Assembly: GCF_000526375.1 (NCBI RefSeq)
Contig: NZ_JAFY01000002.1
Location: 930,001-994,000 of the forward strand
Direction: 5' to 3'
Length of the DNA: 64,000 nt
DNA from: Aminiphilus circumscriptus DSM 16581
Lineage (GTDB): Bacteria > Synergistota > Synergistia > Synergistales > Aminiphilaceae
The stretch's first letter is position 1; each line of letters opens with the position of its first letter. A program made the translations under genes and the position numbers. This document shows, one piece after another, positions 22,893 to 60,423 of this stretch. The notes below the pieces were generated by a model that was given only the letters and a program-made list of their open reading frames with translations, did no database searches and was not told where the DNA came from.

Positions 22893-22992
22893 GGAAGCTC
22901 TGAATAAAAGACCTTTGGCTTTTCCTTGACTCGGGTCGCATCAGGTTCTGCGAGGCGCCCTGCGGGCTGGCGTAGCCTTATTCAGAGATTTC
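22893..22992 (+). mobile_element. MITE copy 1
   Basis: 100 bp, starting GGAAGCTCTGAATAA and ending TTATTCAGAGATTTC (inverted repeats), with TTTC directly repeated on both flanks (22889-22892 and 22993-22996). Same orientation as copies 2 and 4. No coding capacity. Confidence 0.9.
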
Positions 22993-23010
22993 TTTCATTT
23001 CACCTTCTTG

Positions 23011-23108: not shown

Positions 23109-23136
23109 TTGCGTTCTTTCGCTTTTCTGCTACAAT
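23109..23136 (+). promoter_or_regulatory. promoter of the ATP-grasp/GNAT operon
   Basis: TTGCGT (23109-23114), 16 nt, TACAAT (23131-23136) with an extended -10 TG one base upstream. Start would be near 23143, giving a leader of about 360 nt. Confidence 0.5.
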
Positions 23137-23251
23137 TCGCGTCAGAAGGGCACTTCTTTGCCCTTTGCATCAGGAGACGATGACAGTTCTCCCATATGTT
23201 CCGAGGTTTGCCTGCGGGAGTGTATGCGCGGGAGACCGCCAGAGTCAGTGG

Positions 23252-23337
23252 GCCGAATCGCCCTTCTCCGACAGTCGAGAAATGGACCGTATGCAGTACG
23301 TCCGAAACTGTCGGGGAAGGGCGTTGTTCGTTTCGGC
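23252..23337 (+). ncRNA. nested long hairpin in the leader of the ATP-grasp operon (possible regulatory RNA)
   Basis: Three coaxial stems are visible. The outer is GCCGAA (23252-23257) with TTCGGC (23332-23337). The middle is 17 bp, 23259-23275 with 23307-23323, with a single G-T pair. The inner is GGACCGTA (23284-23291) with TACGTCC (23297-23303), one base bulged. It matches no riboswitch class I recognise. It could be an attenuator or a processed small RNA. Confidence 0.4.
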
Positions 23338-23505
23338 AGCAAGGTAACGAGAACAGTATATCTTCACTGATGGAGGCGAGGAGGAAGGGCGAGGAGGGGT
23401 TACATGCACTGCAGAATGCATTTGCGGAGAGCGTTGCTGTTGCGTTATTTCTCATCCTCCCGAAAACGGGAGCCCGATCAATGACCCGAGGGGGCGACAC
23501 CTATA

Positions 23506-24567
23506 ATGAATGAGGGCATTCCCAAAGCGGAAGAGCCGCAACCTGCACTTACCGTGGGCATCACCTACAATCTCCGGCAATGGACCGACGACGGAGATGA
23601 CCGGTACGAAGAGTACGATTCCATCGAGACCATCTCCTCTCTGGAGACGGAAATCCGCAAGATCGGTTTTTCTCCCCTGCGCCTTGAGCAGGACGAGCAT
23701 TTCCTCGAAACCCTCAGCAGAGTCCGCCCGGATTTCGTGTTGAACATCGCCGAAGGGCGAGGCGGCGGACGCGGCAGGGAATCCCAGGTCCCCTGTATTC
23801 TGGAGAGTCTTGATATTCCCTTCACTGGATCCGATCCCGTGGCACTGGCGCTGACCCTCGACAAGCATCTCACGCGCACCGTTCTCGCGGCGGGACATCT
23901 GCCGGTTCCCGAGGGGTGCATGATTTCCCCGGGCGGAGAACTTTCGGAGGCGGAAATGCTTCTGAAACGGCACGGAAAGGTGATTGTGAAACCCCGCTGG
24001 GAGGGTTCCTCCAAGGGCGTTTTCGCCGATTCCACGACCACCGATGCGGAACGACTGCCCTTTCTCGTCTCCCGCATCTGGGAGCGTTACGCCCAGGCGG
24101 CTCTCGTGGAGGAATATCTTCCGGGAGACGAATACACGGTCTCCCTTCTGGGAAATCCCCCCGAGGTGGTTGGGCTCATGCGCATCCGCTCCGACAGGTA
24201 TCGGGAGAATTTTCTCTATTCCCTCGAGAACAAGCGGGATCCCGACTGGATGGACCACATGGTCTACGAAGGACGGAGCGCGCTTGATCCTTCCGTGACG
24301 GCCTTTCTCGAAAACGGGGCTGTTCGGGCCTTCGAGGTCTTGGAGCTTCGTGATCTGGCGCGGATCGACTTCCGTACCGATGTGCAGGGTGTGCCCCGTA
24401 TCATCGACGTAAACCCCCTTCCGGGTCTTCGCCCAGGTTACAGCGATTTCCCCATTTCCTGTCAGGTGAACGGTGTCTCCTACGAGGACGTCATTCGGGG
24501 CCTTTTCGACGCTGCGCTTCGTCGGTGTGGTCTTCTCGAACCTTTTCGTCTGCGGGTGGCGTCATGA
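23506..24567 (+). CDS. ATP-grasp ligase, D-alanine-D-alanine ligase-like (first of pair)
   Basis: 353 residues. Begins with a Rossmann-like preATP-grasp part (VGITYNLRQW) and DFVLNIAEGRGG, matching the Ddl N-domain. Then the substrate/ATP region: LDIPFTGSDP, LTLDKHLTRTVLAAG, VIVKPRWEGSSKGVF (ATP-binding lysine and glycine loop), VEEYLPGDEYTVSLLG, and the metal-binding end IIDVNPLPGL. The usual Ddl block before the C-terminal Asn/Glu is altered, and the EGRGGGRGRE loop is not the standard LHGxxGEDG. It probably joins amino acids, but not necessarily D-Ala. The next gene overlaps by 4 bp. The ATG at 23506 has only a weak ribosome-binding site. Confidence 0.85.
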   Translation: MNEGIPKAEEPQPALTVGITYNLRQWTDDGDDRYEEYDSIETISSLETEIRKIGFSPLRLEQDEHFLETLSRVRPDFVLNIAEGRGGGRGRESQVPCILESLDIPFTGSDPVALALTLDKHLTRTVLAAGHLPVPEGCMISPGGELSEAEMLLKRHGKVIVKPRWEGSSKGVFADSTTTDAERLPFLVSRIWERYAQAALVEEYLPGDEYTVSLLGNPPEVVGLMRIRSDRYRENFLYSLENKRDPDWMDHMVYEGRSALDPSVTAFLENGAVRAFEVLELRDLARIDFRTDVQGVPRIIDVNPLPGLRPGYSDFPISCQVNGVSYEDVIRGLFDAALRRCGLLEPFRLRVAS

Positions 24568-25658
24568 GGCGTGCTTCGCAAAGCGACAGTCCCGTGGTGG
24601 TGGTTACCGGCCGGGAGGCGACCGAGCGGGAAGACGTGCTTGACTCGCTCCGGTGCCGCGAATCCGTGGCGGCGGCCCTCCGGGAGGAGGGGCACGAAGT
24701 CCGGCTTTTCGATGTCACCCCGGAACACCTCACGGAGGAAGGGTACACGTCGCTCCGGTCGGAACTGCTCTCGCTCCGTCCGAAGTGCGTCTTCAATCTC
24801 TTCGAGGGCTTCAGTGCCGATTCCGCCGCGGAGATTCGTTTCTGCACCGTTCTTGAGGAGCTGGGACTTGCCTTCACGGGAAATCCCCCGGAAACGCTTG
24901 CTCGCTGCCTTGACAAGGCGGAGGCGAAGGATCGCCTCCGAAAGGCAGGACTTCCCGTCGCTCCCGGTTTTTGTGTCCGAAACGACTGGAACGGTGCCAT
25001 GCCCTCCCTGAAGTATCCCCTTTTCTGTAAACCCTGCTGTGAGGACGGCAGCGTGGGAATCGGTGACGATGCCCTCGTCCGAACGCCGGAACAGCTCGTG
25101 GACGTGCTGTCGTCCATGCTCGCCTCTTTTCCCGGAGGAGTTCTCGTGGAGGAATTTCTTCCCGGAAGGGAATTCAACGTGGGATTTCTCGGCAATGTCC
25201 GCTACGAGCTGCTCGGCGTTTCGGTCATCGACTACGAAGGGTACGGAGACGTGCCTCCTTTTCTCAACTATGCCTCCAAGTGGGATCCGGAAAATCCCTC
25301 GTACGCAATCGAAGTCCGCGTCGAGGAAGGAATTCCCCCCTCGCTTCGGAAGCGCATTCACTCCATTGCGGCAAAGGCGGGGAGGGTGCTCGGCTGTCGG
25401 GGATATTTCCGGGTGGATCTCCGTGAGCGGGACGGGAGACTCCATGTGCTCGAAGTGAACCCGAATCCGGACCTCAGTCCGGAAAGCGGCCTCGCCCGTC
25501 AAGGTGCCTTTCGGGGATATTCCTACCCGGAAGTGGTGTCGCGTCTTGTCCGTCTTGCCGGAAAGAGTGCTCCAAGGAGGGAAGAGCGTGAACGAAGAAA
25601 TCGATGTTCTGCTGGAGATGGCCGCCCGAACTGGGGCCTTTACACCCCAGGAACTTGA
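24564..25658 (+). CDS. ATP-grasp ligase, D-alanine-D-alanine ligase-like (second of pair)
   Basis: 364 residues, starting at the ATG overlapping the previous stop. Related to but clearly different from its neighbour. The N-domain has CVFNLFEGFSADSAAEI in place of the Ddl loop; then LAFTGNPPETLARCLDKAEAK, YPLFCKPCCEDGSVGI (ATP-binding lysine), VEEFLPGREFNVGFLG and the metal-binding end LEVNPNPDLSP. The last ~25 residues are Arg-rich and overlap the start of the acetyltransferase gene, so the C-terminus may be poorly conserved. Two consecutive ligases plus an acetyltransferase suggest stepwise building of a short, acylated peptide-like metabolite. Confidence 0.85.
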   Translation: MRRASQSDSPVVVVTGREATEREDVLDSLRCRESVAAALREEGHEVRLFDVTPEHLTEEGYTSLRSELLSLRPKCVFNLFEGFSADSAAEIRFCTVLEELGLAFTGNPPETLARCLDKAEAKDRLRKAGLPVAPGFCVRNDWNGAMPSLKYPLFCKPCCEDGSVGIGDDALVRTPEQLVDVLSSMLASFPGGVLVEEFLPGREFNVGFLGNVRYELLGVSVIDYEGYGDVPPFLNYASKWDPENPSYAIEVRVEEGIPPSLRKRIHSIAAKAGRVLGCRGYFRVDLRERDGRLHVLEVNPNPDLSPESGLARQGAFRGYSYPEVVSRLVRLAGKSAPRREERERRNRCSAGDGRPNWGLYTPGT

Positions 25659-26058
25659 GGTTCTGGAGGAAGTGTTGCGGGATGCTCTTCGAGGTGATGG
25701 GGACGCTCAGGATGAGACGGCCTACCGGCTTTGCACACTCCGAGAGCAGGATCGTCCTGCCGGTTTCCTGATCTACGGAAGGACACCCATGACCGCATTT
25801 GCCTACGATCTCTACTGGATCGTCGTGGAGCCCGCCTTGCACGGTACCGGCGTGGGACGTCGTCTCGTGGCGGTCATGGAGGATGCACTCCGGGCTTCGA
25901 CGGGGCGAGGTATCGTCCGGGTGGAGACCTCCGGCAAAGAGGAGTATGCGGGACAGCGTGTCTTCTATGAACGCTGCGGATTCTCTCTTGCGGGGAGAAT
26001 CGCTGATTTCTATCGCTCCGGGGATGACCTGCTCACCTACGTGAAGGTCGTGTCCTGA
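25588..26058 (+). CDS. GNAT family N-acetyltransferase
   Basis: 156 residues from a GTG at 25588, chosen because AAGGAGG lies 7 nt upstream; it overlaps the ligase gene by 71 bp. Core GNAT motifs: strand beta-4 in YDLYWIVVEPALHGTGVGRR (the acetyl-CoA pyrophosphate loop is HGTGVGRR), then a helix and VETSGKEEYAGQRVFYERCGF. The N-terminal helix DVLLEMAARTGAFTPQELEVL is typical of one GNAT subgroup found beside paired Ddl-like ligases. It likely acetylates an amino group of the ligases' product or substrate. Inference from linkage. Confidence 0.85.
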   Translation: MNEEIDVLLEMAARTGAFTPQELEVLEEVLRDALRGDGDAQDETAYRLCTLREQDRPAGFLIYGRTPMTAFAYDLYWIVVEPALHGTGVGRRLVAVMEDALRASTGRGIVRVETSGKEEYAGQRVFYERCGFSLAGRIADFYRSGDDLLTYVKVVS

Positions 26059-26226: not shown

Positions 26227-26323
26227 GGAAGCTCTGAAGAAAGACCTTTCGCTTTCCCTTGACTCGGCGTCAGGCTCTGCGAGACACCCTGCGGGGGCTG
26301 ACGCAGCCTTATTCAGAGACTCC
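26227..26323 (+). mobile_element. MITE copy 2
   Basis: 97 bp, GGAAGCTCTGAAGAAAG to CTTATTCAGAGACTCC, flanked by ATAA on each side (26223-26226 and 26324-26327). Slightly diverged and a few bases shorter than the others. Confidence 0.9.
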
Positions 26324-29537: not shown

Positions 29538-29637
29538 GGAATCTCTGAATAAGGCTACGTCAGCCCCGCAGGGCGCCTCGCAGAGCCTGATGCGACCCGA
29601 GTCAAGGGAAAGCGAAAGGTCTTTATTCGGAGCTTCC
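29538..29637 (-). mobile_element. MITE copy 3 (inverted)
   Basis: 100 bp, GGAATCTCTGAATAAG to the complement of GGAAGCTCCGAATAAAG, flanked by TCAG on both sides (29534-29537, 29638-29641). It lies between two converging genes, 13 bp past the PucR stop. Confidence 0.9.
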
Positions 29638-31069: not shown

Positions 31070-31170
31070 GGAAGCTCTGAATAAAGGCCTTTCGCTTTCC
31101 CTTGACCTCGAGTCGCATCAGGCTCTGCGAGGCGCCCTGCGGGGCTGACGCAGCCTTATTCAGAGATTCC
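31070..31170 (+). mobile_element. MITE copy 4
   Basis: 101 bp, GGAAGCTCTGAATAAAG to CTTATTCAGAGATTCC, flanked by ATAA (31066-31069, 31171-31174). It carries the full internal inverted repeat CGTCAG/CTGATG around a GC-rich core. Confidence 0.92.
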
Positions 31171-56222: not shown

Positions 56223-56244
56223 CTGGAAGAAAGGAGGAGTGCAG

Positions 56245-57462
56245 GTGAAAGAACGAGAGGAGCGCATGTCGGAGCGGCTGTTTGCCGCGACCGGTACCGA
56301 CGAGGCGATGGAATTGACCGCCCGGCTCATTCGTATCCCCAGTCACTGGGAAGTTCCGGAGAAAGAAGTCGAGGTGGTGCGGGCCATTGTCGCCTTTCTC
56401 GAGGCAGAGCGGATTCCCTACGAACTTCAGAGGGTCGAGGGTGAGCGGTACAACGTGATCGCCCGCATTCACGGAGCGGGATCAGGGAGAAGCCTTGCCC
56501 TGGTGGGACATCTCGACACGGTTCCTCCCTTCGACATGACCGTGCCCCCCTTCGACGGTCTCAGGCAGGAGAATCGCCTCTACGGACGGGGCGCGGTGGA
56601 CATGAAGGGTCCCGTAGCGACCATGCTTCTCACTCTTGCCGCCTTCGCCCGCACCGGTATTGTGCCCGAGGGAGATCTCTGCTTCGCCGGAGTCCTCGCG
56701 GAGGAGACCAACAGTGACGGGTGCGAGACCCTCGTCGCCTCGGGATTTCGCACGGACGGGGCCATTGTGGGAGAGCCTTCGGCGGGGGAGTACTCCATCG
56801 GCCACCGGGGTCTGGAGTGGATCGAGGTGGAGTTTTTCGGGAAACGGGCGCATGGGGCCATTCCCGAAGCCGGGGTGAACGCCATCGTTCATGCCGCATC
56901 CTTCGTGAAGTGTGTCCAGGAAAGAATCGTTCCCGAACTGCGCCGGCGGACGCACCCCGCCATGGGGCAGTCGGTGATGAACTTTGGCACCATCAACGGC
57001 GGAACGCAGCCGAGCACCGTGGCGGATCGCTGTCTGATCCGGCTGGATCGGCGTTATCTTCCCGATGAGAGCGTTGAGAGCATCCTCGCCGAATATCAGG
57101 CGATTCTCGACGACCTTGCCCGGGAGGATCCTACTTTCAAGGCGGAACTGCGGAGAATGCCCGAGAACCTCATGCGCATCTATGATCATGTTCCTCTGGA
57201 GACGTCGCCGGAGGATCCTCTGGTGACGACCCTGCTCTCGGTCCTGGAGGATGTGAGGGGCATGCCTCCCTCTCTGTCGACGCGGCGCGGTTGGACCGAT
57301 GCGGCCCTTCTGAGTCGGTACGGACGTATTCCCACCGTGGTTTACGGACCGGGGAATATCTCCCGCTCGCACACGGCGGAGGAATACATCACCGCCGAGG
57401 AACTCGCGGAAGGACTTCGCGCTTACCTGCTGCTCGCTCTCCGGTACTGCGGGGCGCGTTGA
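56245..57462 (+). CDS. M20 family deacylase (ArgE/DapE-like), first of pair
   Basis: GTG at 56245 lies 7 nt after AAGGAGG (a GTG at 56239 is too close); 405 residues. Metal and catalytic residues: LVGHLDTVPPFD (H, D), YGRGAVDMKGP (bridging D), GVLAEETNSDG (E-E), VGEPSAGEYSIGHRG and the late histidine in SRSHTAEEY. The lid domain carries GKRAHGAIPEAGVNAI. It hydrolyses N-acyl amino acids or peptides in the cytosol. A second M20 gene follows within 320 bp. Confidence 0.92.
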   Translation: MKEREERMSERLFAATGTDEAMELTARLIRIPSHWEVPEKEVEVVRAIVAFLEAERIPYELQRVEGERYNVIARIHGAGSGRSLALVGHLDTVPPFDMTVPPFDGLRQENRLYGRGAVDMKGPVATMLLTLAAFARTGIVPEGDLCFAGVLAEETNSDGCETLVASGFRTDGAIVGEPSAGEYSIGHRGLEWIEVEFFGKRAHGAIPEAGVNAIVHAASFVKCVQERIVPELRRRTHPAMGQSVMNFGTINGGTQPSTVADRCLIRLDRRYLPDESVESILAEYQAILDDLAREDPTFKAELRRMPENLMRIYDHVPLETSPEDPLVTTLLSVLEDVRGMPPSLSTRRGWTDAALLSRYGRIPTVVYGPGNISRSHTAEEYITAEELAEGLRAYLLLALRYCGAR

Positions 57463-57779
57463 CAAGGCGGAGTGGAAGTGGCAAGATGTATGCAATTCGT
57501 GCTTGCCGTGCGGCTTGTTCCCCGAGGGGTGTCTTTGTTTGTTCGGGAGCGTTTCTTCGCTGGTGAAATCTGTCGCGGCATCGTGAGAAATCGGCAAAAA
57601 TCCTGGGGCTTGACGCGACGGAAAGGTTTTGGCTCGTGTGGAGAAGGAAGCGGAACGAAAGAAGATTCTTCCGCAGGAAACGCGCTTCCGACACATGGAA
57701 GAATGCGGAGCCTTTTGAAGGACCTGATGGTTTTCGAGGCCGGGATCCGTCCGAAGACGTGAAAGGATCTGAGACGACG
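57463..57779. other. 317-bp gap between the two M20 genes
   Basis: No gene, promoter or terminator that I can support. An open frame continues upstream of 57780, but its product is Arg-rich and unlike the family. Confidence 0.4.
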
Positions 57780-59024
57780 ATGGGTGCTTTGAGAAGATCT
57801 TTCGCCGAAGAGGTTCGGGCCTGTGCGGACGATGGAGAAATCGTGGCTCTCGCGGGGAAGCTGGTGTCGATTCCGAGTTGCCATGGCTTGCCGAAGCCAG
57901 AGGAGGAAATTGCTTCCTTTCTGCACGGATTCCTGCGTGAAAACGGAGTGGAAAGCTGTCTCGTTCCCCTGGGCGAAGGACACTGGAACGTTCTCGCCTC
58001 CATCGGAGGCAAGGGCGGAGGAACGGACCCCTGGAACGGCGGCGAGGCGGGACTCCTCCTGAACGGACATCTCGACACGGTGGGCGTGGACGGCATGGAG
58101 GGCGATCCCTTCAGCGGTGCCGTGGTGAACGGTATGCTCTCCGGAAGAGGTTCCGTGGACATGAAGGGGGCTGTGGCAGCCATGGTCATGGCGCTTGTGG
58201 CGTTGCGCCGCTCCGGTGTGCGTTTGTCGAAGCCGCTCCTTTTTTCCGCGGTGGCCGACGAGGAGTGGTGGAGCACGGGAACGCGGGCGCTTCTGGAGAG
58301 CGGTGTCCGGGCGCGCTACGCTATCGTTGGGGAGCCCACGCAGCTTGAGATTCACCACGGACATCGAGGGCTCGAATGGCTCGAAATCCGCGTACAGGGA
58401 CGCTATGCCCACGGCGGTGCGCCCGAACGGGGCATCAATGCCATCGTGAAAATGAACGCCGTCGTGACGGCCCTGACGGAGAGGCTTCTTCCCCAAATCG
58501 CGCAGCGGGTGCATCCCATCGCGGGACCGGCGACGCTCAACCTCGGGCGTATCGAGGGAGGGCTCCAGCCGAGCACCGTGGCGGGAAGCTGTCTTCTTCA
58601 GCTTGACCGGAGATGGATCCCCGGAGAGTCCTCGAAGGGTGTCACGGCGGAGATCGCGGAACTGCTGGAGGACCTTTCCGGAAAGGATCCGGACTTTTTT
58701 GCCCAAGTGGTTCCCATGCGGGATCGGGAGGTCCATCCCGGTGACAACCCGCCTCTCTGTACGGACCCGTCGTCTCCGCTTGTGCAGTCCCTTGTGGCGT
58801 TCATGACCGAGCGTCGCGGCGGATCCCGGCTCGGACTGTTTCCCGCCTGGAGCGACGGGGGACTTCTCAGCGAGGCGGGAATCGAGACGGTGGTGTTCGG
58901 GCCGGGAGATCTCGCCCTGGCGCATTCCATGAACGAGGTCTGTCCTGTTGCGGATATCCTCGATGCCTGCGACGGCTACATCGCTGCGGCAGTGGAGCTT
59001 TGTGGCGCGCGAGGTGCCGCATGA
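57780..59024 (+). CDS. M20 family deacylase (ArgE/DapE-like), second of pair
   Basis: 414 residues from the ATG at 57780 (AAAGGAT upstream, loosely spaced). Catalytic blocks mirror the first: LLNGHLDTVGVDG, SGRGSVDMKGAVAA, FSAVADEEWWSTG, VGEPTQLEIHHGHRGLEWLE, GRYAHGGAPERGINAI and LAHSMNEVCPV. The insertions and C-terminus differ, so the two enzymes likely have different acyl or amino acid preferences. Acts with the hydantoinase and the TRAP system. Confidence 0.92.
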   Translation: MGALRRSFAEEVRACADDGEIVALAGKLVSIPSCHGLPKPEEEIASFLHGFLRENGVESCLVPLGEGHWNVLASIGGKGGGTDPWNGGEAGLLLNGHLDTVGVDGMEGDPFSGAVVNGMLSGRGSVDMKGAVAAMVMALVALRRSGVRLSKPLLFSAVADEEWWSTGTRALLESGVRARYAIVGEPTQLEIHHGHRGLEWLEIRVQGRYAHGGAPERGINAIVKMNAVVTALTERLLPQIAQRVHPIAGPATLNLGRIEGGLQPSTVAGSCLLQLDRRWIPGESSKGVTAEIAELLEDLSGKDPDFFAQVVPMRDREVHPGDNPPLCTDPSSPLVQSLVAFMTERRGGSRLGLFPAWSDGGLLSEAGIETVVFGPGDLALAHSMNEVCPVADILDACDGYIAAAVELCGARGAA

Positions 59025-59142
59025 TCCGTTGTTGTGCACATGCGTGGGGTAGAAAAGGAACGGAGCACGCCCGTGCGGGGGACGTTCCATGGAGTGGTCG
59101 GACAGTGCGGAGAGACGGTCCGACCGGAAGGGGGTAATTCGC

Positions 59143-60423
59143 ATGAGGGAGTATCGAAGCGTCGAACTGTGGAAGGATGTCGCTCCGGAACAGTGGAACG
59201 ACTGGAAGTGGCAGGTTGCCAACCGGATCACCACGGTGGAACAGCTCCGGAAGGTGCTGCCCCTCACGGATGACGAGGCGAAGGTCATCGAGCAGAGCCT
59301 GAACAAGCTCCGCATGGCCATCACGCCCTATTACGCCTCGCTCATCGATCCGGCAAACCCCGAGGACCCCATCCGGAAACAGGCGGTGCCCACGCTCAAG
59401 GAGACGCACATTGCCGCCACGGATTTGGAGGATCCTCTCCACGAGGACATCGATTCTCCCGCGCCCGGGCTGACGCACCGCTATCCCGACCGGGGCATTC
59501 TCATGCTCACGGATCAGTGCTCCATGTACTGTCGTCACTGCACACGGCGGCGCAAGGCGGGGGAGACGGACAAGGCCTACACGAAGGAGTATCTCAAGCC
59601 CGCCATCGACTATCTTCGAAAGACTCCTACATTCCGGGACATCCTCTTCACCGGCGGCGATCCTTTCCTCGTGAGCGACGAGCTGATCGACTGGGTGCTC
59701 GGTGAAGTGCGCCGGATTCCCCATATCGAGATCGTCCGCTTCGGCTCCCGGACGCCGGTGGTCATGCCGCAGCGCATCACCGACGATCTCTGCTCGATTC
59801 TCAGGAAATATCACCCGCTCTGGGTGAACACCCATTTCAATCACCCTCATGAAATCACGCCGGAATCACGGAAAGCCTGCGAAAAACTCGCCGACGCGGG
59901 TATTCCCCTGGGAAACCAGTCCGTGCTCCTCAAGGGCGTCAACGACTGCCCCTACACGTTCCGGGAACTGAACCAGAAACTGCTCACCCTGCGGGTCCGC
60001 CCCTACTACATCTACCAGTGCGACCTCTCCACGGGGATCGAGCATTTCCGCACCTCCGTGGCGAAGGGTATCGAGATCATGGAATACCTTCGGGGACACA
60101 CCTCCGGTCTGGCCGTTCCCTACTTCATCGTGGACGCGCCGGGTGGCGGCGGCAAGATCCCCGTTCTTCCCAACTATGTCGTCTCCATGTCGGACAAACG
60201 GGTGGTCCTGCGCAACTACGAGGGCGTGATCTGCACCTACACGGAACCGGAGGACAAGATCAGCCATTGTCCCGAGGGGTGTGAGGCCTACTGCGAGCGG
60301 CAGAAGAAATATTCCCGGGAAGGGCTCATCCAGCTTTTGGAGGGGGAGAAGATCTCCATCGAACCGTCTCACCTGGCCCGGAGGGACCGGGCGGCACACC
60401 GGGGGTGCGATGGCAAGCACTGA
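59143..60423 (+). CDS. kamA: lysine 2,3-aminomutase
   Basis: 426 residues from the ATG at 59143 (AAGGGGG upstream). Radical-SAM cluster CSMYCRHCTRRR, PLP lysine in VDAPGGGGKIPVLPNY, and C-terminal cysteines CPEGCEAYC that bind zinc in the known enzyme. The two aspartates that grip the side-chain amine of lysine are present, in YIYQCDLSTGIEHFR and VDAPGGGGK. Glutamate 2,3-aminomutases have other residues there, so lysine is favoured. It forms beta-lysine, either to feed lysine fermentation or as an osmolyte precursor; the other fermentation genes (kamDE, kdd, kce) are not in this window. Confidence 0.93.
   Translation: MREYRSVELWKDVAPEQWNDWKWQVANRITTVEQLRKVLPLTDDEAKVIEQSLNKLRMAITPYYASLIDPANPEDPIRKQAVPTLKETHIAATDLEDPLHEDIDSPAPGLTHRYPDRGILMLTDQCSMYCRHCTRRRKAGETDKAYTKEYLKPAIDYLRKTPTFRDILFTGGDPFLVSDELIDWVLGEVRRIPHIEIVRFGSRTPVVMPQRITDDLCSILRKYHPLWVNTHFNHPHEITPESRKACEKLADAGIPLGNQSVLLKGVNDCPYTFRELNQKLLTLRVRPYYIYQCDLSTGIEHFRTSVAKGIEIMEYLRGHTSGLAVPYFIVDAPGGGGKIPVLPNYVVSMSDKRVVLRNYEGVICTYTEPEDKISHCPEGCEAYCERQKKYSREGLIQLLEGEKISIEPSHLARRDRAAHRGCDGKH

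Follow-up and report, generated by a model that had tools for sequence, protein, structure and literature searches.

The window, by which we mean the whole stretch of 64,000 nucleotides of Aminiphilus circumscriptus DNA analysed here, comes from a 3.2-Mb genome (7 contigs, 99.9% complete) and contains an operon of three overlapping genes, two of which encode Ddl-like ATP-grasp ligases (L1 and L2) and the third a GNAT N-acetyltransferase. The features of the operon and its flanks are:

22896-22999, 26240-26319, 29540-29624 and 31073-31168, and locus L197 10111-10202: repeat of about 100 bp, copies on both strands
23252-23331, plus strand: hairpin in the L1 leader, long and stable, z-score -3.6 against shuffles
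23506-24567, plus strand: L1, Ddl-like ATP-grasp ligase, first of the pair; ATG start, 353 aa, PF07478
24564-25658, plus strand: L2, Ddl-like ATP-grasp ligase, second of the pair; ATG start, 364 aa, PF07478
25588-26058, plus strand: GNAT N-acetyltransferase; GTG start after an AAGGAGG Shine-Dalgarno sequence, 156 aa

The L1 stop and the L2 start share 4 bp (ATGA), and the 5' end of the GNAT gene overlaps L2 by 71 bp, both lengths being exactly those given in the original prediction. Its left edge, at 23109, was drawn about 400 bp too far out, as coding starts at 23506 and codon-position GC is flat over 23109-23505. The hairpin in this leader might be a regulatory element; a riboswitch or other known RNA was considered and rejected, there being no Rfam match of use. 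The repeat, whose copies are 83-94% identical, is dispersed, flanks the operon, occurs on another contig as well, and resembles a palindromic element of the REP or MITE kind. The neighbours of the triad encode a response regulator, a CheX-like protein, an M20 peptidase, a DcuC-family carrier and PucR, so that the earlier remark that no cell-wall gene lies around holds for the immediate neighbours, the range over which we looked.

Both ligases match PF07478 well above its cut-off of 24 bits (L1 80.7 bits, L2 83.1 bits), and because they share only 30% identity over their aligned positions they are distinct proteins, which bears out the claim of two different Ddl-like ligases together with a GNAT enzyme. 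Alignments show that the ATP-grasp catalytic Lys, Arg, Asp/Glu and Asn are conserved in both, and the AlphaFold models adopt the Ddl fold (L1: pLDDT 87, best PDB match Ddl 1iow at 23% identity; L2: pLDDT 89, best PDB match Ddl 6u1d at 28% identity); by score, residues and modelled fold, L1 and L2 are ATP-grasp (PF07478) carboxylate-amine ligases. On the Ddl model TIGR01205 (cut-off 245.65) both fail, with 107.5 bits for L1 and 103.6 bits for L2, whereas the cell's own Ddl, which is encoded on contig 7 and not on the contig of the window, passes with 268.5 bits. Furthermore, the own Ddl carries the N-terminal Ddl loop with its S-x-E-R-E-V-S motif (GGDSPEREVSL), and alignments of L1 and L2 confirm that, as had been proposed, neither has it; L1 instead has an invariant EEYD and L2 two invariant aspartates, D24 and D27. 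The idea that L1 or L2 is the genome's only Ddl, against which the original prediction had been staked, is ruled out by this separate Ddl above the model cut-off, and judged by sequence neither ligase is the cell's Ddl. In a maximum-likelihood tree L1 forms one group across Synergistota, Omnitrophota and Planctomycetota with moderate support (85/76), and L2 likewise forms one group across the same three phyla (94/98). The third protein matches PF13508 and PF00583; the solved structure nearest to its family profile is 2r7h (E 1e-31), named by its depositors a putative D-alanine N-acetyltransferase, and a scan of 18 GNAT members against NCBIfam (E 0.001) gave no match to the AblB model.

The search for conserved triads in other genomes that the original prediction had proposed was successful. 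The triad is carried by 38 of 188 Synergistota genomes, Acetomicrobium being one cultured example, and most named genomes with the closest relatives of L1 belong to this phylum. The order L1-L2-GNAT, usually with overlaps, is identical in all 35 Synergistota loci read and therefore not a matter of chance; L2 and GNAT are a single protein in genome G140, from one Synergistota genus, and the length of the ORF suggests the same fusion in G139. This kept order, the overlaps and the fusion together support the view that the three genes belong together. A few operon copies contain a stop, as does L1 of genome G027 (internal stop, locus L100 7576-8400), and in genome G012 a 410-aa ORF has inserted into L2 and splits it (locus L077 8942-11392), indicating that the operon is lost now and then and is decaying in some lineages. 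That the triad is missing from the sister genome G001 carries no weight, as this assembly, 81% complete, has no match to the flanking DNA either. Another Synergistota family has a protein of 641-644 aa with a methyltransferase-like N-terminal half and a Ddl-like ATP-grasp half, adjoined in locus L085 by an MFS-like transporter gene:

L085 7398-9332: methyltransferase-like/ATP-grasp protein
L090 7877-9811: methyltransferase-like/ATP-grasp protein
L091 2721-4646: methyltransferase-like/ATP-grasp protein

It is improbable, although the Ddl fold of both ligase models would fit, that the ligases modify the cell wall by building an alternative peptidoglycan stem or cross-bridge. Such a reading has been given, in a paper on lichen Nostoc that also has LAM among its abbreviations, to a related ligase, described as MXAN_4097-like and encoded in an operon (PMC5987646). 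MXAN_4097 itself is a tandem PF07478 protein of Myxococcus with no assigned function, and its insertion mutants are not obviously impaired in growth or morphology (PMC9108774). A cell-wall role is further opposed by the presence of a standard Ddl, by the fact that most Synergistota genomes lack the triad, and by the gene neighbourhoods, in which no cell-wall gene is found immediately beside the triad and none is prominent in the conserved neighbourhoods.

A fourth gene, encoding KamA, lies in the window 33 kb from the triad and thus not adjacent to it:

59143-60423 (ORF opens at 59089), plus strand: KamA, predicted lysine 2,3-aminomutase; TIGR03820 609 bits, cut-off 525.4

The original account of the operon was correct as to the triad and missed KamA as a partner, though it is in the same window. 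In many Synergistota loci clustering of the neighbouring genes placed KamA directly 3' of GNAT. An L1 alignment scan of named genomes gave 80 loci, of which 72 were informative in that their contigs were long enough; 61 of these 72, and 47 of the 49 from outside Synergistota, have KamA no more than 500 bp from the ligases. Omnitrophota and Planctomycetota place KamA first (KamA-L1-L2-GNAT), and five Omnitrophota loci have it in a single ORF with L1; a second Omnitrophota arrangement has two L1-type ligases followed by KamA and no GNAT. The end of the operon at which KamA stands thus differs between phyla, as does the type of KamA, and this points to a functional link more than to mere inheritance of neighbours. 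The same association is seen between genomes: among the 188 Synergistota genomes, 35 of the 38 with the triad have KamA, and when only those with a completeness of 90% or more and a contamination of 5% or less are counted, KamA occurs in 26 of 26 with the triad compared to 5 of 90 without it (Fisher test, with genomes counted as independent and kinship ignored).

Some Omnitrophota loci hold additional genes. A PIG-L type deacetylase gene lies between L1 and L2 in locus L133 (6995-8293), with matching genes in L132 and L156, and in two of these three loci no GNAT was found. In six loci the genes beside KamA-L1-L2 include one for a LysW-like zinc-ribbon protein whose acidic tail is long:

L113 8643-8993: LysW-like zinc-ribbon gene
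L130 1655-1858: LysW-like zinc-ribbon gene
L132 2100-2312: LysW-like zinc-ribbon gene
L133 3759-3977: LysW-like zinc-ribbon gene
L153 4067-4285: LysW-like zinc-ribbon gene
L156 3274-3537: LysW-like zinc-ribbon gene

These genes raise the idea that the ligases act on a LysW-type carrier protein, the peptide being built while attached, which we consider very improbable, since the EDWGE end is missing from most of the Omnitrophota proteins, no such gene occurs in the Synergistota loci read, and the LysW of the window's genome, which has the usual EDWGE end, is encoded at another place on the chromosome, beside a separate ATP-grasp gene of its own.

Outside these phyla, rhizobial plasmid homologues of the ATP-grasp ligases were rejected as relatives of the operon, three such loci being without KamA, and plasmid GNAT matches were rejected because no ligase lies alongside. 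In Bradyrhizobium and Thioflavicoccus KamA does adjoin one such ATP-grasp homologue. The Bradyrhizobium plasmid cluster combines KamA and a Ddl-like ATP-grasp ligase with a gamma-glutamyltransferase and a 7TM protein, and that of Thioflavicoccus combines KamA and a Ddl-like ATP-grasp ligase with diaminopropionate synthesis genes:

L192 2264-7029 and L190 2488-7969: plasmid KamA/ATP-grasp clusters (Bradyrhizobium, Thioflavicoccus)

In a literature search of partial coverage we found no paper that brings KamA and an ATP-grasp enzyme together; subscription journals may hold an earlier description.

In order to predict the substrate of KamA we compared it with the models for the different aminomutases. 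The window KamA, which is the sole TIGR00238 match in its genome and aligns with the solved enzyme 2a5h over its full length, scores above the lysine model and below the glutamate, arginine and EF-P aminomutase models (231 bits on EpmB, cut-off 369.3). The residues Asp293 and Asp330 of 2a5h, which bind the lysine side chain, are kept in every operon KamA long enough to show them, and in having both residues as well as a TIGR03820 score over the cut-off the window KamA is a predicted lysine 2,3-aminomutase (AblA). The Synergistota operon KamAs tested likewise score high enough for the lysine 2,3-aminomutase equivalog model; those of Omnitrophota and Planctomycetota score under it, and their substrate is therefore less certain. 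Two known uses of such an enzyme were rejected for this genome: EF-P beta-lysylation, because KamA is not of the EpmB type and no EpmA/GenX match over the cut-off is present, and classical lysine fermentation, because its markers lysine 5,6-aminomutase and BKACE were not found in the genome.

Synergistota also have a second conserved context of KamA, beside M20 peptidase genes (window 56239-60423; loci L201, L203, L206 and L210), joined by an SSS symporter gene in loci outside the window only. The window KamA adjoins two M20 peptidases, and this context occurs in genomes without the triad too, so KamA may serve in breakdown as well as in the triad pathway. It is conceivable, if fairly unlikely, that ordinary amino acids, L or D, are what the triad builds into its acetylated di- or tripeptide and that KamA is linked to it in some other way, for example through lysine breakdown or balance. 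Such a reading would account for the several triad genomes in which KamA stands apart from the triad beside an M20 peptidase, sometimes with an SSS transporter, and for the near-complete genomes G003, G010, G053 and G063, which have KamA and lack the triad. It does not sit well with the adjacency of KamA to the ligases across phyla, its occurrence in one ORF with L1, or the missing markers of classical beta-lysine breakdown in this genome.

Taken together, our analysis favours, at a probability of roughly 55%, an operon for a small N-acetylated, beta-lysine-containing, peptide-like metabolite, a reading made from sequence comparisons. We infer beta-lysine as a building block from the KamA linkage, which moves the comparison from Ddl to the AblA/AblB pathway. 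KamA would convert L-lysine to beta-lysine; L1 would use ATP to activate a carboxylate and join beta-lysine to an amino acid; L2 would form a second amide bond; and GNAT would acetylate a remaining amino group. The order KamA, L1, L2, GNAT is suggested by the KamA-L1 and L2-GNAT fusions and by the way in which the genes are lined up in Omnitrophota and Planctomycetota. The most likely product would then be an N-acetylated beta-lysine di- or tripeptide, with the identity of the other amino acids, one or two partners, being a guess. The acetylated small peptide that the original prediction proposed thus appears the most reasonable product, yet was incomplete in leaving out beta-lysine made via KamA.

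As to the use of the product, our guess by analogy is that an intracellular stress or osmotic solute would be likeliest. The reasons are that N-epsilon-acetyl-beta-lysine is a known solute of methanogens (PMC12776343, PMC1224877), that the conserved neighbourhoods contain no recurrent exporter gene, and that genes for HSP20, encapsulin and encapsulated ferritin occur nearby. In about eleven loci of one Synergistota family these genes precede L1 on its own strand, for example:

L070 11544-14516, same strand as L1: HSP20, encapsulated ferritin and encapsulin genes and a baeRF gene

HSP20 genes also occur in one Omnitrophota locus. All of these could equally be plain neighbours. That undescribed N-acetylated beta-lysine di- or tripeptides are made by four enzymes common to Synergistota, Omnitrophota and Planctomycetota and serve as a stress or osmotic solute is possible, and we put it forward only tentatively. 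If true, these phyla, which are anaerobic and little studied, would have a non-ribosomal pathway dedicated to acetylated peptides of beta-amino acids, going beyond the single-amino-acid acetyl-beta-lysine solute of methanogens. Because the families that its ligases match bear the label D-alanine-D-alanine ligase, such a pathway is easily taken for cell-wall metabolism. Thanks to the KamA-L1 and L2-GNAT fusions, the order of its steps could be tested directly with a few purified proteins.

Among known systems, the AblA/AblB pathway of methanogens and some bacteria is similar in combining a lysine 2,3-aminomutase with a GNAT enzyme, in the predicted acetylation of beta-lysine and in a possible role as stress or osmotic solute. 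It differs in that the triad adds two ATP-grasp ligases, so that the product would be a peptide and not one amino acid, and in that the GNAT of the triad has no match to the AblB model. The synthesis of N-acetylglutaminylglutamine amide (NAGGN), in which ATP-grasp ligation and acetylation give a small peptide solute, works similarly in outline to the proposed pathway; unlike it, the triad in the window has no asparagine-synthase-like partner, and among the matches listed the NAGGN models gave none to L1, L2 or GNAT at E 0.001. The MXAN_4097-like amidoligases, likened here by description, are also PF07478 ligases additional to the cell's Ddl, two of them in tandem in MXAN_4097, but that is one protein as opposed to two separate genes and a GNAT here. 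Finally, L1 and L2 share with Ddl the fold and the ATP-grasp catalytic residues, and differ from it in their scores of about 105 bits on TIGR01205 (cut-off 245.65), in their N-terminal loop and in existing beside a separate Ddl.
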